Part shown: piece by piece, positions 27,229 to 46,396 of the stretch
Layout: each line of letters starts with the position of its first letter
Position numbering within the stretch: the stretch's first letter is position 1
Origin: Aquisphaera giovannonii
GTDB taxonomy: Bacteria; Planctomycetota; Planctomycetia; Isosphaerales; Isosphaeraceae
DNA length: 64,000 nt
Assembly: GCF_008087625.1 (NCBI RefSeq)
Contig: NZ_CP042997.1
Coordinates: forward strand, 4,712,001 to 4,776,000
Direction of reading: 5' to 3'
Made by a program: the position numbers and the translations under genes
The notes under the pieces: model-generated
Told to the model about the DNA's origin: nothing
The model's input: only the letters and a program-made list of their open reading frames with translations
Databases searched by the model: none

Positions 27229-28158
27229 TCACTTCGCCTTGAGGTACGTGTCGAACCAGTCGGCCATCCGCTCGGTGTCCTTCTCCATGCCCGGCCAGCC
27301 GTGGTCGCCGCCCGGCTTGACGGAGAGCTCCGCCTTCACGCCGGCGGCCCGGAGGGCCTTGAGGAAGGACTCGGATTGCTGGAGCGGCACCAGGCCGTCC
27401 CTATCCCCGTGGATCAGGAGGATCGGCGGGTCGTCCGGCGTGACGGCGTAGATCGGCGAGATCCCCTTCGTGATGGCGCGGAGCTTCTCCGGGTCGGTGA
27501 TCCGCTCCGCCGTCCCCTTCGCGCGGTCCATCTCGCGGTGGTCGAACGCCGCCTTGAACGGCTGCGGGTGGCCCTGGGTGCCGACGTGCTCCACGCCCGG
27601 CTTGCCCCAGTTCAGCAGGTCGGTGAGCGGGAAGAAGACCGCGGCGGCCTGGACCCGGCTGGACTCGCGGTCGATCGGGTCGCGGGCCTTCGGGTCGCCG
27701 GCGTCGCCGGCCGTGGCGACCAGGAGCGAGAGGTTTCCCCCCGCGGAGCCCCCGGTGATGCCGATGCGGTTCGGGTCGATGCCGTACGCCTTCGCGTTGT
27801 GGCGGATGAACCGGACGGCCCGGTTCAGGTTCTTCTCGATCTCCGGCACCTGGTAGCGCGGCTGGCTCCCCGGCACGACGGCGAACACCGTGTACCCCCG
27901 GTCCAGCAGCGGCCGGATGGAGCCCGGCTGGATCATCTCGTGCGCCGCGAAATACCCGCCGCTGATCACCTGGATGACGCCCAGGCCGTTGGGCTTCGCG
28001 GGCCGGAAGACGTCGAGCGTCAGCGCCATGCCGTCGCGACGGCCGTAGACGACGTCCTCGGTGCGGGTGAACGCCGGCGGGTCCCCGGCCGCGGTGGCCG
28101 GCCGAGCCGGCAGGACGCTCAGGGTGACGAGCAGGGCGAACGAGACGCGTCGGGGCAT
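27229..28158 (-). CDS. Secreted alpha/beta hydrolase, esterase-like
   Basis: The protein has 309 residues from ATG 28158; the longer frame upstream is repeat DNA. It has a signal peptide (MPRRVSFALLVTLSVLPARP). The fold markers of a BD-FAE/acetyl-xylan-esterase type hydrolase are present: LDVFRPAKPNGLGVIQVISG, the nucleophile elbow GITGGSAGGNLSLL with its Ser, DDPPILLIHGDRDGLVP with the acid Asp, and GGDHGWPGM with the catalytic His. The substrate is probably an ester on a polysaccharide or small molecule (inference). It is co-transcribed with the DUF3237 gene and has a clear paralogue at 47250-48203. Confidence 0.9.
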   Translation of the reverse strand: MPRRVSFALLVTLSVLPARPATAAGDPPAFTRTEDVVYGRRDGMALTLDVFRPAKPNGLGVIQVISGGYFAAHEMIQPGSIRPLLDRGYTVFAVVPGSQPRYQVPEIEKNLNRAVRFIRHNAKAYGIDPNRIGITGGSAGGNLSLLVATAGDAGDPKARDPIDRESSRVQAAAVFFPLTDLLNWGKPGVEHVGTQGHPQPFKAAFDHREMDRAKGTAERITDPEKLRAITKGISPIYAVTPDDPPILLIHGDRDGLVPLQQSESFLKALRAAGVKAELSVKPGGDHGWPGMEKDTERMADWFDTYLKAK

Positions 28159-28519
28159 GCTTCCTCCCGGGGCGGATCGGTCATGGCGGGGATGGGCGAG
28201 GCTCGCGGCCGCCACGCGGGTCGAAAGTCCGTCCCTCGAGCCTGCGGCGTGCAGCCCGGGATCCCGTCCAACTCCCCCGGCCACGGGTGGAGCCGAATTC
28301 GCTCCCCCCCTTACCAAGGGGGGATACAGGGGGGTTCATCCGATCACCTCGGCCGACCCCATACACCCCCTCCAACTCCCCCTCGGTAAGGGGGAGAGCC
28401 GGATTGGATTCCCCTCGCCGGGGAGTTCTCGGGACGGAACGAGGTCCGATCCTATGCCCCGGTCATCGCGCGGTCAATCTCCCGCCGTCCCCCGAGGCGC
28501 GACCGGGATATCCTCCCGA
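28159..28519. repeat. Intergenic gap with family R2 element (28303-28398)
   Basis: The element is about 96 bases long. It opens CCCCCCCTTACCAAGGGG, then GGATACAGGGGGGTT, and closes with ATACACCCCCTCC and CCCCCTCGGTAAGGGGGAG, so its ends are inverted copies of each other. The same element occurs at 46479-46574 and 57947-58041. No gene is seen in the rest of the gap. Confidence 0.75.
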
Positions 28520-28987
28520 TTAACCGGGGCGCGTCATGCTCGTGATGCCGCGATGGGCGAGCGCCGCGGCCAGGCCGCCGATCAGGTACCAGGAGAACGC
28601 CATGGCCGCCGTCTGCGGCGTGCGGGCGCTCGGGCGCCCCCCCAGGCCGAGCACCGGCGGCAGCGCGACGGCGCCGAGCCCCGCGGCGGCGCCCAGGCCC
28701 ACCCCGCGGGCGAGCGTCCCGGCCGGCGACCCGAGGCCGACGAGCGAGTAATAGAGCGCGTTGCTCACGATGTCGCCGCCGAGGGCCGCGGCCTGGAGCT
28801 CGTCCTCCGGCGGCACCTCCATCCCGGCCGCCTCCAGCCCCGAGGCGATCGCCCGCCGGCCGAGCGTGTCCATCCTCGGCGCGTCCGGGTGGACGCGGCG
28901 GACCGTCTCGTGGATCAGCGTCACCACCGACGCCCCGACCAGGCCGCTGAGCAGGGCCTTGGACCAACCGGGTATACCGCCGTTCAT
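28520..28987 (-). CDS. Small glycine/alanine-rich membrane protein, unknown function
   Basis: The protein has 155 residues from ATG 28987, eight bases after GGAGG; a second ATG six bases upstream is too close to that site. Hydrophobic segments are seen at about 8-26 (WSKALLSGLVGASVVTLI), at 77-110 (NALYYSLVGLGSPAGTLARG and a Gly/Ala-rich stretch) and at about 127-145 (AAMAFSWYLIGGLAAALA). Between them is a polar part with HETVRRVHPDAPRMD. I do not recognise a family. It lies divergent from a sigma factor gene, 207 bases from its start. Confidence 0.6.
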   Translation of the reverse strand: MNGGIPGWSKALLSGLVGASVVTLIHETVRRVHPDAPRMDTLGRRAIASGLEAAGMEVPPEDELQAAALGGDIVSNALYYSLVGLGSPAGTLARGVGLGAAAGLGAVALPPVLGLGGRPSARTPQTAAMAFSWYLIGGLAAALAHRGITSMTRPG

Positions 28988-29194
28988 GAGCATCGCCTCC
29001 GGAAGAGAAATTGCGTTTCCTTAACCCAAAGCAACTGGCGTGCCCGGTCGCCTCGAAGGCCCGAGGCCAGCTCCCCCCGATCGCCGATCGGACGCGTCGA
29101 TTTCCCGCCGGCCGCGCTCATTTCCGGCCGGCCCGATGCACTAACCTGTGGAGACCCGCGGATCCGTCCCGACCGGGACAGGGAGACCCACGAC

Positions 29195-29734
29195 TTGCTC
29201 ATCCCCGACGCGAAGCTCGTCGAGGCCGCCCGCGGGGGAGACCTCGCGAGCTTCGGCCTGCTGTACGAGCGGCACTACCGCATGGCGGTCGGGATCGCCC
29301 GCTGCCGGCTGAACGACCCCCACCTGGCGGAGGACGCCGCGCAGGAGGCGTTCGCGATCGCCTGCCGCACCATCCACGCCCTCCGGGACCCCCGCCGGTT
29401 CGCGGAGTGGCTGGGGACGATCTGCCGCCGGGCCGCCTCGCGGCTGGACGCCGACCGGCCGCCCCACGAACCGCTCGACGAGGCCCCCGAGGGCGCCGAC
29501 GATCCCGGCCTCCGCACGCTGCGGCTCCAGGTCCGCGAGGCCCTCCAGTCGCTGGACGAGACCGCCAGGGAGGTCGTCGTGCTCCGCCACTTCAGCGGCC
29601 TCTCCTACGAGGAGATCGGCCGGGCGCTCGGCCTCTCGGCCCAGAGCGTCCACGGCCACCTCCAGCGGGCCCGCGGCAAGCTCGCCCGGGCCCTCGACCC
29701 CCACGACCCCTCAGGAGCAGGAGCCCGATCATGA
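29195..29734 (+). CDS. ECF sigma factor with downstream anti-sigma-like partner
   Basis: The protein has 179 residues, probably from TTG 29195 (MLIPDAKLVEAARGG), preceded by GGGACAGGGAG. The open frame upstream carries no family sequence. Region 2 is FGLLYERHYRMAVGIARCRL and HLAEDAAQEAFAIACRTIHA. Region 4 is LDETAREVVVLRHFSGLSYE followed by the EIGRALGLSAQSVHGHLQRA helix-turn-helix. The SYEEIGRALGLS context is that of ordinary group-4 ECF sigma factors and differs from the kinase-linked ones in this window. The stop overlaps the start of the membrane protein gene (ATGA), which is the usual arrangement for a sigma/anti-sigma pair. Confidence 0.9.
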   Translation: MLIPDAKLVEAARGGDLASFGLLYERHYRMAVGIARCRLNDPHLAEDAAQEAFAIACRTIHALRDPRRFAEWLGTICRRAASRLDADRPPHEPLDEAPEGADDPGLRTLRLQVREALQSLDETAREVVVLRHFSGLSYEEIGRALGLSAQSVHGHLQRARGKLARALDPHDPSGAGARS

Positions 29735-32779: not shown

Positions 32780-33475
32780 ATGAGGGCCCGCCCGACGGCC
32801 CGGGCCGAGGCCCTGGAGGCGGCGGACGTGGAATCCGAAGGATCGCTGACGCGGTTCGCGCAGGAGCTGTACTCGCCGGAGCAGGCCGTGCGCGAGGAGG
32901 CCGCGCGCCAGCTCTGGCTGCGGTTCTCGGGCCGGCTCGCCGCCGTCGTCCGCCGGCGGCTGGACCCGCGCATCCTCCGCCGCTCGGGCGAGGAGGACGT
33001 GGTCCAGAGCCTCTTCGCCAGCTTCTTCGGCGCCCCGCCGGGCCCGAACGGCCCGCCGCGCGACCGGGCCGAGCTCTGGGGTCGCCTCGTCCGCTTCACC
33101 ATGTGCAAGGTCGCCAACACGGCCGATCGCCACAGGGCCCAGCGCCGCGACGTCTTCCGCGAGCGTCCCCTCGAGGCGCCGGGCGAGGCCGACTCGCGGC
33201 GAGGGCCGGCCGAGCCCGAGGACGCGCGGGCGCTCGGCCCGGAGGAAGAGGCGATGGCCCGCGAGGAGTTCCAGCGGCTCCTCGCGGCGCTCCCCGCCGA
33301 CCTCCAGCTCGTCTTCGCGAGGCGGCTGGAGGGCTACACCAACGGCGAGATCGCCGCGGAGATCGGGCGGTCGGAGCGGATGGTGGAGCTGAAGATGAAG
33401 GCGATCCGCGGGCTCCTCAGGTCGCGCCTCGAGGGGCCGGGCTCGATCGCGCGTCGCGACGACGCCACGCGTTAA
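32780..33475 (+). CDS. ECF-type sigma factor of the sigma-kinase-CHAT unit
   Basis: The protein has 231 residues. Region 2 is seen as LWLRFSGRLAAVVRRRLDPR and GEEDVVQSLFASFFG, where EEDVVQS replaces the usual D-x-x-Q-E of planctomycete ECF factors. Region 4 is LPADLQLVFARRLEGYTNGE followed by IAAEIGRSERMVELKMKAIR. The first 25 residues are less conserved, so the true start may be a later codon. It is followed at 30 bases by a membrane kinase and then a TPR-CHAT protein on the same strand, which suggests one operon whose expression or activity is set by this sigma factor (inference). Confidence 0.88.
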   Translation: MRARPTARAEALEAADVESEGSLTRFAQELYSPEQAVREEAARQLWLRFSGRLAAVVRRRLDPRILRRSGEEDVVQSLFASFFGAPPGPNGPPRDRAELWGRLVRFTMCKVANTADRHRAQRRDVFRERPLEAPGEADSRRGPAEPEDARALGPEEEAMAREEFQRLLAALPADLQLVFARRLEGYTNGEIAAEIGRSERMVELKMKAIRGLLRSRLEGPGSIARRDDATR

Positions 33476-33505
33476 CACCCCCTCGTCCCCAGCGAGGCCC
33501 CGGCC

Positions 33506-35425
33506 ATGGAGACCGTCGAAGGGCAGCCCCTCCTCGAGATCCTCCGGGCCGTCGAGGCCTTCGAGGACGGATGGCATCGCGGCGAGCCCATCCGCCTGGA
33601 GGAGCTGCTCGCCCCGTGGCGAGGCCCCGCACGCCGCGAGCTCTTCGCGCAGGCCCTGGGGATCGAGCTGCACTACCGGCGGCGTCGCGGCGAGCGGCCC
33701 ACGCCCGACGAGTACGAGGGGCGGTTCCCCGACCTCGCCGCGGCGGTCCAATCCGAGTTCGGCGAGGGGCCGCGGACGGTGACGCACTCCGCCGGGAGCG
33801 ACGAGGGCACCGAGCGCGACTCGTCCGACCTCTCCGCGTCGGCGTCCCCCGGGCCCGGGCCGCGGCGGATCGGCAAGTACGAGGTGATCCGCATCCTCGG
33901 CGGGGGCGGGCAGGGCTCCGCCCTCCTGGCCCGCGACCCGGACCTCGGCCGCCGGGTGGTCCTGAAGCGCTACCACGCGGGCCGCGGCGACGCGCCGGCG
34001 GAGATCGAGGAGGGCAGGGCCCTCGCCCGCGTCATCAGCCCGTATGTCGCCCGCTGCCACGGCATCGAGCGGATCGACGGCGAGGTCTACCTGGTCGTCG
34101 AGTACATCCCGGGCCGTTCCCTGGAGGAGGCCCGTCGCGCCGGGGCGCTCGACCTGGGGCGGACCGTGGAGGTCATCGCCCGGCTGGCCGAGGGGGTCGC
34201 CGCCGTGCACGCCCGCGGCCTGATCCACCGCGACATCAAGCCGGCCAACGTCATCCTCCACGACGACGGCACGCCCCGCCTCGTGGACTTCGGCCTGGCG
34301 GCGCACCTGGGCAGCGACCGCCTCCGCGAGCTGGGCGGTTCCCCGCCCTACATGGCGCCCGAGCAGGCGCGATGCGACTCCGACCGCATCGACCACCGGA
34401 CCGACGTCTTCGGGCTCGGGGCGCTGCTGTACAAGATGCTCGCGGGGATGGCCCCCCACAGCGGGTCGACGGCCGCCGAGATCCTCCGGGGGGCGACGCG
34501 GGGCGAGACCATCCCGCTCCGCCAGTTGGCCCCGGAGGTCCCGCCGGCCGTCGAGGCCGCCTGCATGAAGGCCCTGGCCCCGGCGCCGGAGAACCGCCAG
34601 TCGACCGCCCTGGAGTTCGCCGCCGACCTGCGCCGGGCGATCGCGCACGGCGCGGAGGCGCCCCGCCGGCCCTCGCGGAGGCCGCTCGCCGCGACGGCCG
34701 CCCTCCTCGCCGGCCTGGCCGTGGCGGCCCTCGTCTGGGCCAGGCCCGGGACGCCGACGGCCGCGACGCCCCCCGGCGACGCGCCTCCCGCCCCCGCCAC
34801 CGCGCCCGAGCCGGCCGCGGGGACGCTCCGGGCCGAGATCGGCGTGGAGCACTTCAAGGAGCTGGGCGACGCCCGGCACGTCGAGAGGTCGGGGACGATC
34901 TCCCGGGCCTCCCTGCCCGCAAGCCCGCCCCGGCTCAGGGACCTCGTGCGGGTGCACGTCACGCTGTCGCGGCCGGCCTACGGCCGCCTGATCGCCCTGA
35001 ATCCCGACGGCACGGTCCAGCCCTGCCTGCCGGCCCGCGAAGTCCCCGCCGACGCCCCGCGCACCAGCCTGGATTTCCCCGAGGACCCGCGCGATTATTT
35101 CGGGCTGACCGACGGCGTCGGGCTCCAGGCCTTCGTGTTCGTCGCCTCCGACCGGCCGCTCCCCGCCTTCGACGCGTGGAAGGCCCGGGTCCCCGGCGAC
35201 CTGGCCTGGTCGCCGGTCCATTACGAGGGGTTCTGGGCCTACGACGAGGCGGTGCCGTCCGCGGCCGGGCCCGGCACGCGGACCCTCCGCGGCGACATCC
35301 TGCGCCGCGAGTCGGCCCCCGAGGCGCTGGTCGGCCTCTGCGATCGAATCCGCCGGGCCGAGGGCGTGACGCTCGTGCGCGCGGTCGCCTTCCCCGTGGA
35401 GCCCGCGGACACCGTCGCGAAATAG
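33506..35425 (+). CDS. Membrane Ser/Thr kinase with outer DUF4384-like domain
   Basis: This 639-residue protein has a helical N-terminal segment (RRELFAQALGIELHYRRRRG, TPDEYEGRFPDL) common to planctomycete kinases. The kinase domain spans about 125-395: loop GGGGQGSALLARD, Lys154 in VVLKRY, HRDIKPAN with catalytic Asp243, DFGLAAHL, and a normal YMAPEQAR. The activation segment is short. One membrane helix lies at about 395-415 (LAATAALLAGLAVAALVWA), then a Pro/Ala linker. The outer domain (about 450-639, VHVTLSRPAYGRLIALNPDG, FPEDPRDYFGLTDGVGLQAF) resembles DUF4384-type domains that accompany caspase-like proteins. Its neighbour downstream is indeed a CHAT protein, 58 bases away. Confidence 0.9.
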   Translation: METVEGQPLLEILRAVEAFEDGWHRGEPIRLEELLAPWRGPARRELFAQALGIELHYRRRRGERPTPDEYEGRFPDLAAAVQSEFGEGPRTVTHSAGSDEGTERDSSDLSASASPGPGPRRIGKYEVIRILGGGGQGSALLARDPDLGRRVVLKRYHAGRGDAPAEIEEGRALARVISPYVARCHGIERIDGEVYLVVEYIPGRSLEEARRAGALDLGRTVEVIARLAEGVAAVHARGLIHRDIKPANVILHDDGTPRLVDFGLAAHLGSDRLRELGGSPPYMAPEQARCDSDRIDHRTDVFGLGALLYKMLAGMAPHSGSTAAEILRGATRGETIPLRQLAPEVPPAVEAACMKALAPAPENRQSTALEFAADLRRAIAHGAEAPRRPSRRPLAATAALLAGLAVAALVWARPGTPTAATPPGDAPPAPATAPEPAAGTLRAEIGVEHFKELGDARHVERSGTISRASLPASPPRLRDLVRVHVTLSRPAYGRLIALNPDGTVQPCLPAREVPADAPRTSLDFPEDPRDYFGLTDGVGLQAFVFVASDRPLPAFDAWKARVPGDLAWSPVHYEGFWAYDEAVPSAAGPGTRTLRGDILRRESAPEALVGLCDRIRRAEGVTLVRAVAFPVEPADTVAK

Positions 35426-35483
35426 GCCGCGCCGCGGCGATCGCGGCGGGACATCCCCGCGGCGACGACCTGACCCTGTTGCC

Positions 35484-38400
35484 ATGGAGTCGACGTCGAT
35501 CATGAAGCGCCCCCGCCGGTCTCTCGCGGCTGTCACGTTCGGGATCGCGCTGGGGGCCTTCGCGTGCGGCATGCCCGCCGCGAGCCCCGGCCAGGACCCT
35601 CCGGCCGGCACGCCGCCCGCCGCGAAGCCCGGCCAAATGAAGCCCCGCGACGAGGCCCCGCCGGACGACGCCGAGGGCTGCGAGGAGCAGGCCCGCGCCC
35701 TCCGGGGCCGGGCGAAGTATGCCGAGGCCGAGGCCCTCTACCGCCGCGCCCTGGACATCCGGCTGAAGTCCCAGGGCCCGGACCATCCCGGCACGGCGGG
35801 GGCCTGCAACGGCCTCGCCTCCGTCCTCCGCGACCTGGGGAAGTTCGACGAGGCCGAGGCGATGAACCGCCGCGCCCTGGCCATCCGAATCAAGGCCCTC
35901 GGCGAAGGACATCCCGACACCGCCCTGAGCTACAACGACCTCGGCGTCAGCCTGTTCTTGCTGGCGAAGTCCGCCGAGGCCGAGGCCATGTTCCGCCGCG
36001 CCCTGGACATCCGCCGCAAGGCCCTGGGCGAGGGCCACCTCGACACCGCGGAAAGCTACAACAACGTGGCGACCTTCCTCCAGTCCCAGGGCAAGTACGC
36101 CGAGGCCGAGGCGATGCATCGCCGCGCCCTGGACATCCGCGTCAAGGCCGCGGGCGAGGGCCATCCCCTCGTCGCGGCCAGCTACGTCAACCTCGCCTCG
36201 ACGCTCCGCATCCTGGCCAGGTACGCCGAGGCCGAGGCGATGGCCCGCCGCGCCCTGGACGCCCGGCTGAAGGACCCGGGCGAGGACCACCCCGACACGG
36301 CCGAAGGCCTCAACCTCCTGGCGGAGATCCTCCACGATCGGGCCAGGTATCCGGAAGCCGAGGCGATGCATCGCCGCGCCCTGGCCATCCGACGGAAGGT
36401 GCTGGGCGAGGACCACCCGCTCACCTCGATGAGCTACAACAACCTGGCCGGGGTCCTCATCGTCGAGGGCAAGCACGCCGAGGCCGAGTCCCTGTTCCGC
36501 CGCGCCCTGGACATCGACACCCGGATCCTGGGGGCGGACCACCCCGACACCGCCACCGACCGCTTCAACCTCTCGGAGACCCTCAGGGTCCTCGGCAAGT
36601 ATGCCGAGGCCGAGGCCCTGAACCGCCGCGCCCTGGAGGCCATCCTCAAGTCCAGGGGCGACGGCCATCCCCTCACCGCCATGGCCTACTCCAACCTGGC
36701 CTCCATCCGCCGCGACCAGGCCCGATACGCCGAGGCGGAGGAGTCCTTCCGACGCGCGCTCGAGATCCGCCGCAAGGCCCTCGGCGAGGGCCACCCCGAC
36801 ACCGCCAACGCCTACATCAACCTCGCGGCGGTCCTGTACGACGAGGGCAAGTACGCCGAGGCCGAGGCCGCGAATCGCCGCGCCCTGGCGATCCGCCTCA
36901 AGGTCGTCGGCGAGGACAACCAGGACACGGCCATGGTCTACAACAACCTCGCGCAGGACCTCGGCGCCCAGGGCAGGCACGCCGAGGCCGAGGCGATGAA
37001 CCGCCGCGCCCTGGCCATCCGGCTGAAGGTCCTGGGAGAGGGCCACGCGGACACCGCCCTGAGCTACGGCAACGTGGGCCACGCCCTGTTCAGCATGGGC
37101 AAGTTCGCCGACGCCGAGGCGATGCACCGCCGCGCCCTGGACATCCGCCGCAAGGCCCTGGGGATCGGGCATCCCGCGGTCGTCGAGAGCGGCAACAACC
37201 TCGCGGCGGCCCTCCGGGGCCAGGAGAAGTACGCCGAGGCCGAGGCGCTGCTCCGGGAGTCCCTCGCCATCTCGCTGAAGGCCCTGGGCGAAGACCACCC
37301 CATCACGGCCACCTGCTGCAACAACCTGGCCGCGTCGCTCGCCGAGCGGGGCCATAACGCGGAGGCCGAGGCGATGCACCGCCGGGCCCTGGCCATCTGC
37401 CTGAAGGCCCTGGGCGAAGACCATCCCGCCACGGCCGCCTGCTGCAACAACCTGGCCCAGGGCCTGGCCGCCCAGCGGAAATACGCCGAGGCCGAGGCGA
37501 TGAGCCGCCGGGCGCTGGAGATCGACCTCAAGGCCCTGGGCGACGGCCACCCCGGCACGGCCGACGCCCGGAACAACCTCGCCTTCGCCCTGGACCGGCA
37601 GGGCAAGCGGGGCGACGCCCTGGAGGCGTGGGAGGCGGCCGCGGCGAGCTTCGAGAAGGCCCGGGCCCTCGGGGCGAAGGGGCTCGATTCCGCGCCGACG
37701 GCGAGCCGCTCCCCGCTCCCACCGCTGGCCGCGGCGCTCGCCCGCGCCGGCCGCCCTCGCGAGGCCTGGGCCCGGTGGGAGCAGGGGCTGGCCCGCGGCA
37801 TCGCCGACGAGGTCGCCGGCAGGGCCGCCCGGCCGCTCACCCCCGAGGAGCGGGGGCGAGAGGCCGACCTCCTGGGGCACGCCCAGGCCGCCGAGGAACG
37901 CATCAGCAAGCTCAGGTCCGTCAAGGCGCCCTCGGCGGAGCAGGGCCGGCAGCTCGAGGAGCTGGAGCGCCGGCAGGGCGAGCTGCGCCGACAGGCCCTC
38001 GAGCTCGAGCAGCAGTTCGAGGCGAAATATGGCGCCCTGGCCGGCCGCCCCGCGTCGCTGGAGGACGTCCAGAAGACCCTCCCCGAGGGGACGGCGCTGA
38101 TCGGCTGGGTGGACCAGGGGCCCTATCACTGGGCCTGCCTGCTGCGGGCCACGGGCGACCCGGCCTGGATCCGCCTCCCCGGCTCCGGCGAGGGCGGCGA
38201 CTGGACCGCCGAGGAGGAGGGGCGGGCCCGCAAGCTCCGCGCCGAGCTGAAGCCGGAGACGACACGAGGCAACGCCCGGGCCCTGGCCGAGGCCGTGGCG
38301 AGGCAGCGGCTCGATCCCCTGGAGGGGCAGCTCGGGGGGATCAGGCGGCTGGTCGTCGTGAACTCCCCGGGGCTGGACGGCGTCCCGATCGACGTCCTGC

Positions 38401-39599
38401 TGGCGGCCCGGCCGGGCCGGCCCTGGGACGGGATCGCGGTCGCCAACGCCCCGTCCGCGTCGTTGTACGTCTACCTGAAGGGCAGGCCGGCGCCCCGAGG
38501 GGCCGCCACGCTGCTGGCCCTCGCCGACCCGGCCTACCCGGAGCCGAAGGGCCCCACCCCCGCCCCCGAGCCGCCCGGCGAGGGGCTCCTCATCGCCCGC
38601 GTCGCCCCCCTCGGCAACGCCTTCCTCAACGGCATGCGCGCCGGGGACGTGCTCCTGTCCTACGGCGGGACGACGCTCCGCGAGCGCGCCGACCTGAAGA
38701 CCGTCGCCGGGGGGGGGCCCGCCAAGGTCCCGGTGCGCTACTGGCGGGCGGGCGTCACCCGCGAGGCGAGCGTCGCCGCGGGGCCGCTCGGCGTCCAGGT
38801 CGACCCGCGCCCGGCCCGGGCCGCCGTCGCGGCCGGGCGGGCCGCGGAGGGGGTCCTGGTGGGGATGCGGGGCGGCTCCTACACGCGCCTGCCGGGCACG
38901 CGCCGCGAGGCCGAAGCGATCGCCCGGCTGTTCCCGGCGGAGGCGGCCAGCACCGTGACGGGCGAGCGGGCCCGCGAATCCACCGTGCAGGAGCTCGCGC
39001 GATCGGGGAAGCTGAAATCGTTCCGCTACCTCCACTTCGCCACCCACGGCGAGTCGGACCCGCTGCACGCCTACGGCTCCGCGCTGATCCTGGCGCCCGA
39101 CGACGCCGCCTCGGCGGATGCGCCGGCGCTCGACGCCGACGGGCGGATCACCGCCGAGCAGATCGCCCGGACCTGGGACCTGGACGCCGACCTCGTGGTC
39201 CTCTCCGCCTGCGAGAGCGGCCTGGGCGTCGCGGCCGGCAGCGAGGGCTACCTCGGCTTCTCCCAGCCGCTGCTGGCCCGCGGGGCCCGCAGCCTGATCC
39301 TGAGCCTCTGGAAGGTCGACGACCAGGCCACGGCCCTGCTCATGGAACGCTTCTACCGCAACCTGCTGGGCAAGCGGCCGGGCCTGTCGGCCCCCATGCC
39401 CAAGGCCGAGGCGCTGGCCGAGGCAAAGGCGTGGCTGCGGGGCGCGACCGCGGCGGATGTCGGCGAGGCCCTCGCCGCTCTGCCCCGCGGCGAGATCGTC
39501 CGGCGTGAGGCCGTGGCGCCGAAGCGTGCGGATGCGGCCACCCCTTACGCCGACCCCACGTACTGGGCGGCATTCATCCTGATCGGGTCCACGGACTGA
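35484..39599 (+). CDS. Secreted TPR-CHAT protease-like protein with internal PDZ-like domain
   Basis: This 1371-residue protein may really begin at the second ATG, 35502 (MKRPRRSLAAVTFGIALGAF), which looks like a signal peptide. Residues about 70-700 hold 15 regular kinesin-light-chain-type TPR units with a 42-residue period (YAEAEAMHRRALDIR). A coiled coil follows (about 790-860). The CHAT domain, a caspase-like fold, begins near 865. Its dyad is present: His1188 in LHFATHGE and Cys1243 in LSACESG, with ARSLILSLWKVDD after it. Between the two CHAT halves, at about 1031-1106, is a PDZ-like domain (GLLIARVAPLGNAFLNGMRA, GDVLLSYGGTTL). The order sigma factor, kinase, CHAT suggests a stress- or infection-triggered protease; target unknown. 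Confidence 0.9.
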   Translation: MESTSIMKRPRRSLAAVTFGIALGAFACGMPAASPGQDPPAGTPPAAKPGQMKPRDEAPPDDAEGCEEQARALRGRAKYAEAEALYRRALDIRLKSQGPDHPGTAGACNGLASVLRDLGKFDEAEAMNRRALAIRIKALGEGHPDTALSYNDLGVSLFLLAKSAEAEAMFRRALDIRRKALGEGHLDTAESYNNVATFLQSQGKYAEAEAMHRRALDIRVKAAGEGHPLVAASYVNLASTLRILARYAEAEAMARRALDARLKDPGEDHPDTAEGLNLLAEILHDRARYPEAEAMHRRALAIRRKVLGEDHPLTSMSYNNLAGVLIVEGKHAEAESLFRRALDIDTRILGADHPDTATDRFNLSETLRVLGKYAEAEALNRRALEAILKSRGDGHPLTAMAYSNLASIRRDQARYAEAEESFRRALEIRRKALGEGHPDTANAYINLAAVLYDEGKYAEAEAANRRALAIRLKVVGEDNQDTAMVYNNLAQDLGAQGRHAEAEAMNRRALAIRLKVLGEGHADTALSYGNVGHALFSMGKFADAEAMHRRALDIRRKALGIGHPAVVESGNNLAAALRGQEKYAEAEALLRESLAISLKALGEDHPITATCCNNLAASLAERGHNAEAEAMHRRALAICLKALGEDHPATAACCNNLAQGLAAQRKYAEAEAMSRRALEIDLKALGDGHPGTADARNNLAFALDRQGKRGDALEAWEAAAASFEKARALGAKGLDSAPTASRSPLPPLAAALARAGRPREAWARWEQGLARGIADEVAGRAARPLTPEERGREADLLGHAQAAEERISKLRSVKAPSAEQGRQLEELERRQGELRRQALELEQQFEAKYGALAGRPASLEDVQKTLPEGTALIGWVDQGPYHWACLLRATGDPAWIRLPGSGEGGDWTAEEEGRARKLRAELKPETTRGNARALAEAVARQRLDPLEGQLGGIRRLVVVNSPGLDGVPIDVLLAARPGRPWDGIAVANAPSASLYVYLKGRPAPRGAATLLALADPAYPEPKGPTPAPEPPGEGLLIARVAPLGNAFLNGMRAGDVLLSYGGTTLRERADLKTVAGGGPAKVPVRYWRAGVTREASVAAGPLGVQVDPRPARAAVAAGRAAEGVLVGMRGGSYTRLPGTRREAEAIARLFPAEAASTVTGERARESTVQELARSGKLKSFRYLHFATHGESDPLHAYGSALILAPDDAASADAPALDADGRITAEQIARTWDLDADLVVLSACESGLGVAAGSEGYLGFSQPLLARGARSLILSLWKVDDQATALLMERFYRNLLGKRPGLSAPMPKAEALAEAKAWLRGATAADVGEALAALPRGEIVRREAVAPKRADAATPYADPTYWAAFILIGSTD

Positions 39600-39600
39600 T
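39554..39600. repeat. 47-base direct repeat, copy 1 (end of CHAT gene)
   Basis: The last 46 bases of the CHAT gene plus one base reappear at 40040-40086 with a single T-to-C difference. The two copies flank the R1 repeat cluster, suggesting that the cluster was inserted or amplified between duplicated gene ends. Confidence 0.9.
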
Positions 39601-40039
39601 TCCCGCCCGTCCCTGGGTCGGACCTGGGGCGCATCGGGAATGGGCGACGCGCCCTCGCGTCCGGAGGCGCATCCCGCCGCCCGATGCACCGGCCAGCCCG
39701 CGCACGGGCGATCCCGCGTGCCGCGGCGGTCCCGCGGCATCGCCTCCGGCTCTGCCGCAGCCACCCGGCCCGGCGTCACGCCGGCGCCCCTCCCGGGTGG
39801 CTGTGGCGGAGCGCAGCGACGCCACGGGATCGCCTCGGCCCGCGCGGACGCCGCGGGATCGCCCGCCCGCCTCGGCGGTCCCGCGGCATCGCCTCCGGCT
39901 CTGCCGCAGCCACCCGGCCCGGCGTCACGCCGGCGCCCCTCCCGGGTGGCTGTGGCGGAGCGCAGCGACGCCGCGGGATCGCCTCGGCCCGCGAGAACGG
40001 CGCGGGATCGCCCGCGTGCCGCGGCGGTCCCGCCGCCGC
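39601..40039. repeat. R1 palindromic repeat cluster with tandem duplication
   Basis: A block of about 120 bases at about 39725-39848 is repeated at 39874-39997, a period of 149 bases. Each block carries CCCGCGGCATCGCC, GCCGCAGCCACCCGG and GGTGGCTGTGGCGGAGCGCA. These are the same units as at 13.7-13.95 kb. No gene is seen. Confidence 0.8.
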
Positions 40040-40173: not shown

Positions 40174-43100
40174 TCAGTAGAGGATCGTCCGCTCGGCGAC
40201 GCCCAGGAGGCCCGTCAGGAAGTCGCCGACGGAGCCGCCGGCCGACCAGTTCCACTGCTGGTAGAACGCGCCGAAGCTCTCGGTGACGGGGCTGCCGGTC
40301 GTGTCCATGTAGGTGATCGTGCCGTCGTGGCGGTCGTAGCCGGTCAGCACGACCCAGTGGAGGTCGTTGGGCAGGTGGCCGGCGGTGAAGGGGCCGAAGT
40401 CGCCGACGTCGTGGCTCTGGCCGGTGGGATTGATCAGGGCGATCACCGGCCGGCCCGTGGCCAGGATGTCCAGCACGTGGTCCAGCCCGCCGTCGCCGTA
40501 GTTCACGCTCACCCGGGACTCGAGCCGGGTGGACGGGCGGAACAGCCGGAGCGTATCGAGCAGGCTGGACGGCCGGGTGCCCATGTGGACCAGGGAGATC
40601 AGGTCGGTGTTGTGCTCGATGTAGCCGCGGACCTGCGGGTAGGTGACGTCGAAGCCGTAATACTGGAGGAACCTCGCCGCCGAGTTCGCGCCGCAGCTCC
40701 AGTCGTCGGTCTGCGCCTCGCCGCCGGGGACGCCGTGGATGGTGATCGTCTCCTGGACGCCCGTCGAGGGCGACCAGTAGAGGTCGCCGTTCTGGAAGTG
40801 GCTGATGCGGCCGCCCGTGGCATTCATCTCGTCGGAGGTCGGCAGGCCGAGGACGCCCGCCGGCCCGCCCATCGCGGCATAGCGGTCGCCGATCGCCCCG
40901 TAGACGACGTGGGCGCCCGTGGCATTCGACCAGTAGATCACGCCGTGCTGGAAGGTATTCATCCGGGCCCCGGCGACGCCCGGCACGTCCATCTCATCGG
41001 AGGTGGGCAGGCCGATCCCGCTCGCCGGGCCGCCCTGGCGGAGGTACTCGTCGCGGATCACGCCGTAGACGACGTGTGCGCCCGTGGCATTCGACCAGTA
41101 GATCGTCCCGCGCTGGAAGGTGTTCATCCGCCCGCCCGCGACGCCCGGGATGTCCACCTCGTCGGTGATCGGCAGGCCGATCCCGCTCGCCGGGCCGGCC
41201 TGATGGAGATATTCGTCGCGGATCACGCCGTAGACGACGTGGGCGCCCGTGGCATTCGACCAGTAGATCGTCCCGCCCTGGAAGGTATTCATGCGGGCCC
41301 CGGCGACCCCCGGCACGTCGACCTCGTCGGTGATCGGCAGCCCGATGCCGCTGGTCGGGCCGCCCTGATAGAGATACTCCCCGCCGATCGAGCCGTAGAC
41401 CGCACGGGCGCCGGTCGCATTCGAGTAGTAGGCCGCCCCGTGCTGGAAGGTGTTCATCCGGCCGCCCGCGACGCCCGGGATGTTGACCTCATCGGAGGTC
41501 GGCAGGCCGAGCGGGCCGGCCGGCCCGCCCTGGGCGACGTAATCCACCCCGATCGAGCCGTAGACGACGTGGGCCCCCGTCGCGTTGGACCAGTAGATCG
41601 TCCCGCCCTGGAACGTCGCCCGGTCGGCGCCGGTGACGCCCGCGATGCTCGCCTCGTCGGCGGTCGGCAGGCCGAGGATCGCCTTGACGTTGGTCCCGTT
41701 GACGTCGCCCTCGTTGCCCGTCGCCAGGTACTCGTTGGCGACCGCGGTCGTGACGCTGTGCGCCCCCGTGGCGGCCGACCAGAGGATCGTCCCGTGCTGG
41801 AAGTTCTGCATCCGGCCCCCGCCGATGCCGGCAACCGCCACCTCCTCGCCCGTCGGCAGGCCGAGGCTCCCCGCGGGCCCGCCCAGCGCCTTGTACTTCG
41901 CCGCGATGCTCTCCGACACCGCATGCGCCCCGGTGCCGCTGGCGTAATAGATGGTCCCGCCCTGGAACGTCGCCATGCGCGCCCCGCTGACCCCGGCCAC
42001 GCTCGCCTCGTCGGCGGTCGGCAGGCCCAGCACCCTCTGGAGGTTCTTGCCGGACGCGTCGGTCTCCTTCGCCGTCGCCAGGTACTCGTTGGCGATGGCC
42101 GTCGAGACGCTGTGTGCCCCGGCGGTCGCGGACCAGAAGACCGTCCCGTTCTTGAAGGCCTGGGAGCGGGCCCCGCTCACCCCGGACACGTTCGCCTCGT
42201 CGGCGGTCGGCAGGCCGAGGCTCCCCGACGGCCCGCCCAGGGCCGCGAATTTCGCGGCGATGCTCCCCGCGATGGCGTGCGCACCGGCCGAGCTCGACCA
42301 GTAGATCGTCCCGTGCTGGAACGACTCCATCCGCCCGCCGCTCACCCCGGCGATGGCCACCTCCTCGCCCGTCGGCAGGCCGAGGCTCCCCGCGGGCCCG
42401 CCCAGCGCCTTGTACTTCGCGGCGATGCTCTCCGACACCGCATGCGCCCCGGTGCCGCTGGCGTAATAGATGGTCCCGCCCTGGAACGTCGCCATGCGCG
42501 CCCCGCTGACCCCGGCCACGCTCGCCTCGTCGGCCGTCGGCAGGCCCAGGACCGTCTGGAGGTTCTTGCCGGACGCGTCGGTCTCCTTCGCCGTCGCCAG
42601 GTATTCGTTGGCGATGGCCGTCGAGACGCTATGCGCCCCGGTCGCGCCCGACCAGAGGATCGTCCCGTGCTGGAACGACTCCATCCGCCCGCCGCTCACC
42701 CCGGCGATGGCCACCTCCTCGCCCGTCGGCAGGCCCAGGCCCCCGGCGGGCCCGCCCAGCGCCTTGTACTTCGCCGCGATGCTCTCCGACACCGCGTGGG
42801 CCCCGGTGCCGCTGGAGGAGTAGATCACCCCGCCCTGGAACGTCGCCATGCGCCCCCCGCTCACCCCGGACACGTTCGCCTCGTCGGCGGTCGGCAGGCC
42901 CAGCACCCTCTGGAGGTTCTTGCCGGACGCGTCGGTCTCCTTCGCGGTCGCCGCGTACTCGGTCGCGACCGCCTTCGAGACGGCGTGGGCGCCGGTGGAG
43001 GTCGACCAGTAGATCGCCCCGCCCTGGAAGGTCTCGTACTTGCCGCCGGGGACGCTGGTGGCGATCTCGGCCGAGGTCGACTTGCCGAGGAAGCTGCTCG

Positions 43101-43263
43101 CCCCGCCGAGGGCCGCGTACTTGGCCGCGATCGGGTCGATGCCGCTCAGGAGCTGCCGCGGTTCCATGGCCTCCATCCCGAGGACGGCCTTGCGCCCGCG
43201 GCGGAGCTCCCGGTGATTCGGACGGATCGAGGCGGAGACGCGGAGATTCGAGTTCTTCGACAT
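40174..43263 (-). CDS. Secreted LGFP-repeat protein with C39-like peptidase domain
   Basis: The protein has 1029 residues. Near the N-terminus is the planctomycete export-associated motif MEAMEPRQLLSG (about 30-41) without a classical signal peptide. Residues about 45-820 form 14 LGFP repeats of roughly 50 residues (AAKYKALGGPAG, LGLPTADEANVSG, MATFQGGxIYWS, TGAHAV), a module known from cell-wall-bound proteins. The C-terminus is a papain-like C39-type peptidase: Cys857 in DDWSCGANSAARFLQYYGFD, His969 in LHWVVLTGYD and an Asp in TYMDTTGSP. The likely role is surface-anchored peptidase. Repeats in the middle are almost identical at the DNA level (about 41930-42160 and 42460-42690), a sign of recent internal duplication. 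Confidence 0.88.
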   Translation of the reverse strand: MSKNSNLRVSASIRPNHRELRRGRKAVLGMEAMEPRQLLSGIDPIAAKYAALGGASSFLGKSTSAEIATSVPGGKYETFQGGAIYWSTSTGAHAVSKAVATEYAATAKETDASGKNLQRVLGLPTADEANVSGVSGGRMATFQGGVIYSSSGTGAHAVSESIAAKYKALGGPAGGLGLPTGEEVAIAGVSGGRMESFQHGTILWSGATGAHSVSTAIANEYLATAKETDASGKNLQTVLGLPTADEASVAGVSGARMATFQGGTIYYASGTGAHAVSESIAAKYKALGGPAGSLGLPTGEEVAIAGVSGGRMESFQHGTIYWSSSAGAHAIAGSIAAKFAALGGPSGSLGLPTADEANVSGVSGARSQAFKNGTVFWSATAGAHSVSTAIANEYLATAKETDASGKNLQRVLGLPTADEASVAGVSGARMATFQGGTIYYASGTGAHAVSESIAAKYKALGGPAGSLGLPTGEEVAVAGIGGGRMQNFQHGTILWSAATGAHSVTTAVANEYLATGNEGDVNGTNVKAILGLPTADEASIAGVTGADRATFQGGTIYWSNATGAHVVYGSIGVDYVAQGGPAGPLGLPTSDEVNIPGVAGGRMNTFQHGAAYYSNATGARAVYGSIGGEYLYQGGPTSGIGLPITDEVDVPGVAGARMNTFQGGTIYWSNATGAHVVYGVIRDEYLHQAGPASGIGLPITDEVDIPGVAGGRMNTFQRGTIYWSNATGAHVVYGVIRDEYLRQGGPASGIGLPTSDEMDVPGVAGARMNTFQHGVIYWSNATGAHVVYGAIGDRYAAMGGPAGVLGLPTSDEMNATGGRISHFQNGDLYWSPSTGVQETITIHGVPGGEAQTDDWSCGANSAARFLQYYGFDVTYPQVRGYIEHNTDLISLVHMGTRPSSLLDTLRLFRPSTRLESRVSVNYGDGGLDHVLDILATGRPVIALINPTGQSHDVGDFGPFTAGHLPNDLHWVVLTGYDRHDGTITYMDTTGSPVTESFGAFYQQWNWSAGGSVGDFLTGLLGVAERTILY

Positions 43264-43746: not shown

Positions 43747-45987
43747 TCACCGGACGACCTGCGAGAACCCGCCCCCGCCCCCCGCGCCGGCCGGCGACCC
43801 TGGGACAACGCTCACGGATACCTGGACGGGGCCCCGATAGGGGGCCCGGAGCGTGAGCGTCAAGCGGTGCGTGGCCGCGACATACCGGACGCTCCCGATG
43901 ATGAGCTTCCGGGTGAAGGCGAGCCTCCCGCGCCGGAGGACCCCGCCCAGGACGCGATAGAGCGACGGGTTCGCGACCGGGGCGGGGGCCATCGCCTCGC
44001 TGAAGGCGATCGTCACCGCGCCCACCTTCCCGTCCCGTCGCGTCACGCCGACCACGCCGAGGACCGAGGGCGGGGCCGCCGCGACGCCCCCTCCTGCCTG
44101 CGCCTCGCCCCCGCCGCCGGCCGGGCCGACGCCCCCGCCGGCCTTCGCCGGCGTCACGGCGACCGTGTTCGAGTCCGGCGACACCCACGCGGGCGTCGCG
44201 GACGAGGGGCCGAGGATGGCCGCGTGCACCCGGAACCAGTACGTGGCCCCGGAGGCCGCGAGGCCCGGGACCGCGTAGGCCGTCGTCCCCGGGCCCAGCG
44301 TGGCGATCGTCGCGAAGCTCGACCCGTCGAGGCTCTCCTCGACGAAGGACGTGGCCGCGCCGCCGGTCGGGTCGTCCCAGGACAGGGTCAGCGCCCCGGT
44401 GCCGTCCGGGAGCAGGGACGAGGTCAGCGCGATCGGCGGGGCCTGCGGCATCGCCACGGCGACGGCCGCCGTGCCGCCGCGGGCCCCGTTGACGACGACC
44501 CGATAGGAGGCCAGGCTCCCCGGCGGGACGGCCGGATCCACGAAGCTCGCGGTCCCGGCGGCGACCGCCGCGATCGGCTGGAAGGCCGAGCCGTCGAGCG
44601 ACCGCTCGACCAGCGAGCCCAGCAGGTAGGACGGCCGGACGCGCCGCGGGCTCGCGTCGGCCCAGCTCAGCCGCACCGTCGAAGGCCCCTGCGCGGCGGC
44701 CGACAGGTCCGCGGGCGCCGGGTATTGCAGGCTCACGACGACCTGCACCGGGGCGGAGGCGCTGACCTGCTGCCCGTAATACGCCGCGACGCGGTATTCG
44801 GCCGTCCCGGCCGCCCCGAGGCCGGCGCCGGCGTCCGCGTAGCTCGTCGCCCCCGGGTCCAGCGTCGCGACCACCGAGAACGGGCCGCCGTCGAGCGAGC
44901 GCTCGATCCGGGTGCCCGCGAGCCCTCCGCTGGGGTCGGACCACGAGAGGGTGACCGGCCCGGGATACTCGAACGCGGCCGCGACGCCCGCCGGGGGCGC
45001 CGGGATCGTGGCCGCGCTCACGATCCGTGAGGCCGGCGACGTGCCCTGGCCGATCTGGGAGGTCACGCGATATTGGTAGACCGTCCCCGCCGCCGCCGTG
45101 CCGTCCTTGAAGCGGGTGCTGCCGGCCGGCAGCGTCGCGATCGGCCGGAAGGCCTGGCCCGGGGCCGCCCGCACCACCGTGTACGTCGCCCGCCCGCCGT
45201 TCGTGTCGAACCAGCTCACGTCGATCTCGCCCGGCGACGCGCCCGCGGCGGCCACGAGCCGGGGGACCTGCGCCTGGCCCGCGGGCGCGGGGTAGAGCCC
45301 GTCGATGGTGGAGACGTCCTCGGCGCTCAGCGTCGTCGCCTGGTCGATGAGCGAGCCGTCCCGCCTCGTGATCGCCGGCCGCCCGCCCACCGAGAACGCG
45401 CCGCTGTCGTACTGCATGATCGAGGAAACATCGTACGGCCCGACGTCGAAGATGGGGTTGCTGACCTTCGCGAACGCGTCGTCGTGCGCGGGATCGATGG
45501 CCTGCCAGTTCACGATCACGTGGTCGTCCCGGTCGTACCGCTGCTGCTCGTGGAGCAGCCCCAGCACGTGCCCCATCTCGTGCAGCATCAAGGGCACGCC
45601 GGTGGAGGCGTCGAAGGCCGAGCTCACGTCCACGTAATCGACGGCCTGGTTGTAGCCCACGCTCGCGGTCTCGACGAGCGAATACCCCTCCGACCGGAAG
45701 AGGACGTAGCTCGCCTGGCCGGCCCTGGGCACCCACTGGACGGTCGTCATGTCGTGGTATTCGTCGATCGCCTCGGCGATCACCGCGGCCTGCGCCGGCG
45801 CAATCGAGGGGTCGATCGCGTAGGGGATCTGATTCGTGGGCCAGATGTTCGAGACGACGCACGAGGGCAGCAGCCGCGATTCCAGCGGCTCCCACGAGGG
45901 CGCGACGGCCCGGCGGCTCGCGGCGCGCGGCCTCCCGCCGGCTCCGGTGCGGGCCTTCCGTCCGCTCGGGTCGGGTGCTCCGGGCAT
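43747..45987 (-). CDS. Secreted astacin-type metalloprotease with FN3-like modules
   Basis: The start is uncertain; ATG 45987 (MPGAPDPSGRKARTG) has GGGAG upstream, while 46065 and 46092 are in frame but lack a ribosome site. From 45987 it has 746 residues. The N-terminus carries WEPLESRLLPS, the planctomycete LExRxLLS-type motif. The catalytic domain holds HEMGHVLGLLHEQQRYDRD (His136, Glu137, His140, His146), the full astacin (M12A) zinc signature, and SSIMQYDSGAFS as the Met-turn. Four or five FN3-like beta modules follow (EIDVSWFDTNGGRATYTVVR, PVTLSWSDPSGGLAGTRIER). A C-terminal Ig-like domain (VTIAFSEAMAPAPVANPSLY) ends the protein. It is probably an extracellular or surface protease with substrate-binding modules. 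Confidence 0.87.
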   Translation of the reverse strand: MPGAPDPSGRKARTGAGGRPRAASRRAVAPSWEPLESRLLPSCVVSNIWPTNQIPYAIDPSIAPAQAAVIAEAIDEYHDMTTVQWVPRAGQASYVLFRSEGYSLVETASVGYNQAVDYVDVSSAFDASTGVPLMLHEMGHVLGLLHEQQRYDRDDHVIVNWQAIDPAHDDAFAKVSNPIFDVGPYDVSSIMQYDSGAFSVGGRPAITRRDGSLIDQATTLSAEDVSTIDGLYPAPAGQAQVPRLVAAAGASPGEIDVSWFDTNGGRATYTVVRAAPGQAFRPIATLPAGSTRFKDGTAAAGTVYQYRVTSQIGQGTSPASRIVSAATIPAPPAGVAAAFEYPGPVTLSWSDPSGGLAGTRIERSLDGGPFSVVATLDPGATSYADAGAGLGAAGTAEYRVAAYYGQQVSASAPVQVVVSLQYPAPADLSAAAQGPSTVRLSWADASPRRVRPSYLLGSLVERSLDGSAFQPIAAVAAGTASFVDPAVPPGSLASYRVVVNGARGGTAAVAVAMPQAPPIALTSSLLPDGTGALTLSWDDPTGGAATSFVEESLDGSSFATIATLGPGTTAYAVPGLAASGATYWFRVHAAILGPSSATPAWVSPDSNTVAVTPAKAGGGVGPAGGGGEAQAGGGVAAAPPSVLGVVGVTRRDGKVGAVTIAFSEAMAPAPVANPSLYRVLGGVLRRGRLAFTRKLIIGSVRYVAATHRLTLTLRAPYRGPVQVSVSVVPGSPAGAGGGGGFSQVVR

Positions 45988-46396
45988 CGGCACGCTCCCG
46001 CCCCGCCACGCGCCGTTCCCGGCCGTGGGCGGGGATCGTCGTCGAGACTCGGCCTCGGCCGCCATGCCGGGATCGCAACTCCGAGGGCCCATCAGTGGGC
46101 CGCGGCCACTCCGCTCGCGGAGAAGCCTAGTACCTGAATATCCCCGAGGCGCGGGACAATCCGCCAGCCTCTGGACGCGAGGTCGCATCGGCGCCGGGTC
46201 GTGGCCAAACGGCTCCCGACCTCTCCTCGCGGCGGGCTGACCGTCAACCACACCTCGAGCCGAGCGGTCCTTCCTGTCCCCTCCCCCGCGGTGGGGGAGG
46301 GTCAGGGGGAGCGGGCGGCCGCCTCTGACATGAAAAGTGTAGTAGGGTGCGTCTTGACGCACCGGATCGCCGCGTCATGCAGACGATGCGGCGATA

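Follow-up and report, generated by a model that had tools for sequence, protein, structure and literature searches.

The DNA analysed here, referred to as the window, is a stretch of 64,000 nucleotides from Aquisphaera giovannonii (contig NZ_CP042997.1). Three open reading frames follow one another on its plus strand with intergenic gaps of 30 and 58 bases, and they encode an ECF-type sigma factor, a membrane Ser/Thr kinase and a TPR-CHAT protein that is predicted to be exported (Table 1). A sequence-only reading made earlier had described the three as a single unit on one strand, and this description is borne out by the ORF coordinates and the Pfam domains.

Table 1. Features of the sigma-kinase-CHAT locus, in window coordinates
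Feature	Position	Strand	Basis or remark
ECF-type sigma factor, 231 aa	32780..33475	+	regions 2 and 4; Sigma70_ECF E 8e-10 (Pfam)
Membrane Ser/Thr kinase, 639 aa	33506..35425	+	VLK, HRD and DFG motifs intact; Pkinase E 8e-36, residues 125-355
Single transmembrane segment of kinase, residues 394-411	34685..34738	+	hydropathy 2.21
Kinase outer domain, DUF4384-like beta-sandwich	34739..35422	+	DUF4384 match in relatives; AF2 pLDDT 86
Motif RGDILRRESAP, kinase residues 595-605	35288..35320	+	disordered loop; Arg invariant in 24 aligned CHAT-linked kinases
TPR-CHAT(PDZ) protein, 1371 aa, exported (predicted)	35484..39599	+	Pfam and N-terminal hydropathy
15 TPR units of 42 residues, residues 79-708	35718..37607	+	
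CHAT fold, first half, residues 860-1030	38061..38573	+	alignment, AF2 model
PDZ domain between CHAT halves, residues 1032-1106	38577..38801	+	AF2 model, family profile
CHAT fold, second half with catalytic dyad, residues 1134-1371	38883..39596	+	Pfam, alignment, AF2 model
Catalytic His1188 (predicted)	39045..39047	+	invariant column
Catalytic Cys1243 (predicted)	39210..39212	+	invariant column
Motif RGEIVRREAVA, CHAT residues 1335-1345	39486..39518	+	disordered loop before last strand; partner of kinase motif

The sigma factor retains an acidic GEED motif in region 2.2. The sequence-only reading had found a sigma-kinase layer unfamiliar; ECF factors beside Ser/Thr kinases are, however, already known, and several ECF groups, some of them planctomycete, are predicted to be kinase-regulated (PMC8999054). 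In the kinase-adjacent groups ECF43, ECF59, ECF61, ECF62 and ECF217 a sigma gene is followed by a Ser/Thr kinase gene in planctomycetes, as in the window, and CHAT genes occur in the vicinity of the ECF54 group (PMC8999054). The window differs in that its kinase is paired with a CHAT protein and in that its sigma factor keeps the acidic motif of region 2.2. This motif is replaced by Ser/Thr in ECF43 factors (PMC8999054), and the window factor, with its GEED, departs from them on that count. Hence, activation by phosphorylation of the ECF43 type does not carry over to it.

Among the nearest neighbours scanned in the window, neither defence genes nor CRISPR parts were seen, and PADLOC gave no CHAT match for the window protein. 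A suicide or defence system is accordingly not supported. Regulated suicide, one of the roles proposed from the sequence alone, sits poorly also with the predicted export of the CHAT protein and its coupling to a membrane kinase. The surroundings include, on the plus strand, an ORF (28061-29734) ending at residues ~400-545 in another sigma-70 factor and, on the minus strand, a 1029-aa protein that has 14 LGFP repeats and ends in a Peptidase_C39-like part (40177-43263) and an fn3-containing astacin metalloprotease, encoded a few kb away from the CHAT gene (43750-46362). A 1606-aa ORF antisense to the CHAT gene (34959-39779, minus strand) is most likely a high-G+C artefact.

When the CHAT protein was compared with Pfam, sixteen TPR_10 matches were obtained, and CHAT (PF12770) matched over residues 933-1369 with E 1.2e-55 (189.5 bits against a cut-off of 24). 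The 15 regular TPR units counted earlier were recovered. A match to the FxSxx-COOH system (NCBIfam NF040586, 393 bits against a cut-off of 300) was rejected, the best-matched stretch being in the TPR array. The dyad residues His1188 and Cys1243, which the sequence-only reading had called kept, occupy invariant columns in an alignment of 25 rows. Asp1280, in a WKVDD motif, is invariant alongside them, at a position that would correspond to the Arg pocket of separase. The earlier suggestion that the protein is secreted agrees with a signal-like hydrophobic segment found at the N-terminus of nearly all complete CHAT relatives.

An AF2 model of residues 860-1371 was built from the 25-row alignment (pLDDT 84, pTM 0.78). 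The closest fold to the modelled core was that of separase (5fby; Z 26.9, rmsd 3.1 A over 315 residues); next came Csx29 (Z about 25) and then DdvA, through its CHAT-like part (8rot, chain 695-991; Z 20.3, 3.4 A). Unlike separase, the window CHAT lacks sequence-level membership of that family, belongs to a bacterial protein with predicted export and carries a PDZ insert. By these sequence and structure tests the window protein is a member of the CHAT and PDZ families, with predicted protease activity.

A PDZ-like domain inside the CHAT fold had been proposed from the sequence, and in the AF2 model residues 1032-1106 form a separate domain that superimposes on the S2P/RseP PDZ (3wkm) with Z 11.5 and rmsd 2.4 A over 75 residues. 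In the sequence of the window protein itself the PDZ is weak and below the Pfam cut-off (PDZ_6, E 0.083). Relatives of the window CHAT pass the Pfam cut-offs for PDZ, and the CHAT-family profile matched the HtrA/DegQ/DegP PDZ domains of solved structures with E 5e-11. The model, together with relatives without the insert, rules out an ordinary CHAT subdomain. On a CHAT tree of 49 rows the insert is present in 32 and absent in 17, with 11 changes, at least 8 of them forced by well supported branches; adjacent paralogues within one operon may differ in it (L010, L016). The PDZ is an optional cassette. The fetched CHATs that were attributed to other phyla by name all lack it. At its C-terminal end a GxLG[VI] sequence is conserved (residues 1100-1104, GxLGV in the window at 38781-38795). 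When this was moved to the front, the PDZ_2 score rose in 5/5 sequences and exceeded that of shuffled tails in 5/5, with small margins; the PDZ may be circularly permuted once more, with GxLG[VI] as its carboxylate-binding loop.

The outer domain of the kinase matched DUF4384 (PF14326) with 19.7 bits and E 0.005, below the cut-off of 27 bits. In the aligned relatives DUF4384 was matched at E <= 0.05 in 24/24, the best at 3.8e-9, and nearly all kinase relatives possess one transmembrane segment like that of the window kinase. The AF2 model of the outer domain gave no confident match in the PDB (best Z 6.6, Foldseek E 0.026). Eight columns of the domain are invariant in the 24 aligned members, one of them being Arg595, which lies in a low-confidence loop of the model.

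The three-gene order, proposed as something to be searched for in other planctomycetes, recurs there. In most of the fetched planctomycete loci a kinase with the same outer domain adjoins the CHAT gene. In the window and at about ten further loci the gene directly upstream, in the same orientation, encodes an ECF sigma factor; several Gemmataceae have it upstream but divergent, and for about eleven kinases no sigma was detected nearby. The sigma factor is frequent, yet not obligate, and the kinase-CHAT pair is the constant core of the unit. Of 297 genomes drawn from the class, 24 had the outer domain (E <= 1e-15), 23 had the CHAT family (E <= 1e-60) and 20 had both, nearly always side by side (Fisher p 3e-24, without kinship correction). 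In A. giovannonii itself the outer domain occurs twice and no more, and each occurrence adjoins a different one of the two PDZ-CHAT genes of the genome.

The second A. giovannonii copy (L080, 9251-11202, minus strand) is decayed, a sigma fragment running into kinase remains; the outer domain and the CHAT gene after this stretch are intact. Its sigma factor is of a different type from that of the window, and the sigma partner thus seems exchangeable while the kinase-CHAT pair stays constant. At another locus (L138, 3778-7919, minus strand) a sigma gene is followed by a WD40-repeat kinase, replacing the DUF4384-like one, and then by a CHAT(PDZ) gene; here the kinase is the exchanged partner. Broken copies were also met: kinase and CHAT are both interrupted by in-frame stops in the G285 copy (L139, 5883-11335, minus strand), and at L149 (1474-4190, minus strand) the sigma and kinase genes are intact but the neighbouring CHAT gene is split in two ORFs.

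The outer domain of the kinase and the protease encoded in the same operon carry a matching motif. In the window RGDILRRESAP of the kinase stands against RGEIVRREAVA of the CHAT protein, both in low-confidence (disordered) loops and both ~40 residues from the C-terminus of a part predicted to be exported. In 24/24 kinase loops Arg is followed by a small residue, Gly in 21 and Ala in 3. The sequence-only reading, right about the operon, the PDZ insert and the gene order, had missed this more telling feature.

The match was scored over 24 operons, the best R-anchored window per CHAT loop being picked alike for every pairing. Cognate 11-mers gave a mean BLOSUM62 score of 15.0 compared with 4.2 (sd 1.4) for shuffled pairings, and 0/20,000 shuffles were as high; it may be noted that the motif had been spotted by eye in the same alignments before testing, so these 24-operon figures are not independent of its discovery. 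A scan of fixed columns, involving no window choice, covered 218 kinase x 280 CHAT positions. Its 61,040 pairs contained a sole strong peak, at kinase 595 and CHAT 1335 (z 7.24); the next independent cells reached 4.3, with negative mean scores. The agreement between the loops lies at +2 to +6 after the Arg, as seen in the windows chosen for cognate pairs, a choice that favours those pairs. Codons at identical loop residues were the same in 55/120 cases, 48 being expected. Gene conversion as the source of the motif is thus ruled out, codon agreement being barely above that expected from codon usage.

The covariation is clearly one between lineages. When each pair was compared with its nearest relative alone, the own pairing was better in 13, worse in 8 and tied in 3, which is not significant. 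Four pairs had been left out of the alignments. The distant G121, present in neither alignment, has RGTKTRRNPPS in the kinase and RGDKTRRDVPV in the CHAT protein and ranked 1 of 28, and G267 ranked 2; the remaining 2 of the 4 do not match (G279, rank 8, and the pseudogene G285, rank 15 of 28). Among CHATs for which no paired kinase was found, seven lack the RG loop (L020, L022, L070, L076, L146, L153, L156) and seven have it (L004, L014, L015, L016, L145, L173, L176). Two kinases without the Arg (L165, L168) had no CHAT found nearby. The PDZ-less CHATs L018, L141 and L142 also match the motif of their cognate kinase, which makes it unlikely that the motif is read by the PDZ.

These observations suggest that the CHAT protein and the outer domain of the kinase probably meet at a site which reads the motif. 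The interpretation that we prefer, and to which we give about half of our belief, is an extracytoplasmic protease-kinase signalling unit of planctomycetes, in which the CHAT protein recognises the kinase outer domain and most likely cuts it after Arg595. Both loops would be recognised by the CHAT protein at one site, with cleavage most likely after Arg595 in the kinase and after Arg1335 in the protease itself. The cut would alter the state of the kinase and so pass an envelope signal through the membrane and, in many lineages, on to the sigma factor encoded alongside. The PDZ would act as an optional sensor or recruiting cassette, in a role comparable to that of the DegS PDZ, and the TPR array would hold partners. 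In a narrower version, which would amount to a novel kind of transmembrane signalling, an exported CHAT protein, gated by the PDZ within its own fold, would cleave the kinase outer domain at an Arg-Gly site of which it has a copy itself; protease and kinase, matched by this mimicry, would then switch the ECF sigma factor. This version is tentative and, taken as a whole, rather doubtful. That the protease senses peptides, as the sequence-only reading had suggested, is a fair guess.

Separase combines Arg specificity with substrate mimicry by its partner, and is our model for the motif. Cleavage is preferred because the protease is of separase type, with the dyad and an invariant Asp1280, and because the Arg lies in a disordered loop and precedes a small residue. 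Separase-type specificity, on the other hand, is mostly N-terminal to the cut, while the motif match is C-terminal to the Arg, at +2 to +6, which makes docking or a pseudosubstrate nearly as likely. The RG loop of the kinase would then take the site of the protease's own RG loop and remain uncut, inactivating the protease or tethering it to the membrane, much as securin blocks separase. Mimicry between the loops fits such competition, and the matching PDZ-less proteins would place the site in the CHAT core or the TPR array. However, a disordered loop in which an invariant Arg precedes Gly or Ala, facing a protease with an intact dyad, has the look of a cut site; taken in full, the docking account is possible but on the unlikely side.

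The CHAT protein might instead be the output, a secreted protease that sigma factor and kinase switch on for use against prey, phage, envelope or self, the kinase not being its target. The CHAT gene is often found behind sigma and kinase genes of the same orientation, and CHAT proteases do act as effectors in defence, as in Craspase (PMC10028731). This account leaves the cognate match of the motifs unexplained and has the PADLOC and neighbourhood results against it, and we consider it improbable. It is more improbable still that a third factor, such as a processing protease or a sorting machine, reads the loops of kinase and CHAT alike: the common position ~40 residues before the C-terminus of the exported parts would suit it, but the motif is lineage-specific and covaries within operons, so the reader should be operon-specific too, and no other operon-specific gene was seen. 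That the loops match simply through common descent and base composition, in keeping with the nearest-relative comparison and the two failing left-out pairs, seems very improbable given the lack of any comparable peak in the column scan, the codon counts and the matching of the very distant G121.

Under the preferred reading, in which the protease recognises and cuts the kinase, the unit resembles two known pathways. As in the DegS/RseP pathway (RseA, sigma E), an extracytoplasmic PDZ protease occurs together with an ECF sigma factor and a partner that spans the membrane once, and the window PDZ is HtrA/S2P-like. Of the marks of a DegS-type sensor, export, PDZ and membrane partner are supported for the window unit by sequence and model, and the cutting of that partner is predicted. 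Unlike that pathway, the window protease is of the CHAT cysteine type instead of the trypsin fold, its PDZ lies inside the catalytic fold and a kinase takes the place of the anti-sigma factor as membrane partner. The Craspase type III-E CRISPR system (Cas7-11, Csx29, Csx30, CASP-sigma; PMC10028731) shares the TPR-CHAT architecture, the core fold and the tie to an ECF sigma factor. There, recognition of RNA leads Csx29 to cleave an inhibitor of the sigma factor, and Strecker and colleagues have likened Csx29/CASP-sigma to DegS/RseA/RpoE (PMC10028731). In contrast to Csx29, the window CHAT has predicted export and a PDZ, and pairs with a membrane kinase. The window unit has parts of both, namely TPR-CHAT, PDZ, export signal, membrane partner and ECF sigma factor. 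DdvA, the transmembrane anti-sigma factor of DdvS (PMC4374960), likewise has a CHAT-like C-terminal part in a protein controlling an ECF sigma factor; in the window sigma factor, kinase and CHAT are three proteins.

CHAT and separase-like proteases had thus already been tied to ECF sigma factors, in Craspase and DdvA. What is new here is the matching, covarying Arg motif in a loop of the kinase outer domain and a loop of the protease of the same operon. We know of no bacterial CHAT protease that acts on a membrane kinase or holds a PDZ inside its fold, and among the papers searched none joined CHAT, PDZ and planctomycetes. The common motif turns a guess from gene neighbourhood into a named, testable contact, between kinase Arg595 and CHAT Arg1335, and offers a handle on the wiring of very many planctomycete kinases and ECF factors.

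In G121 the further CHAT genes L173 and L176 have tails of the form LRGATIV..EPGAEE, and no paired kinase of the window type was found for them; they may have other partners. In G258 a CHAT gene without an adjoining kinase (L136, 6210-10334) has the motif RGEVRPLAKAS, and the kinase at L149 of the same genome (4190-6031) has the similar RGAVRPLADLP. Judged from these motifs, cross-talk between the L136 CHAT protein and the L149 kinase is possible.
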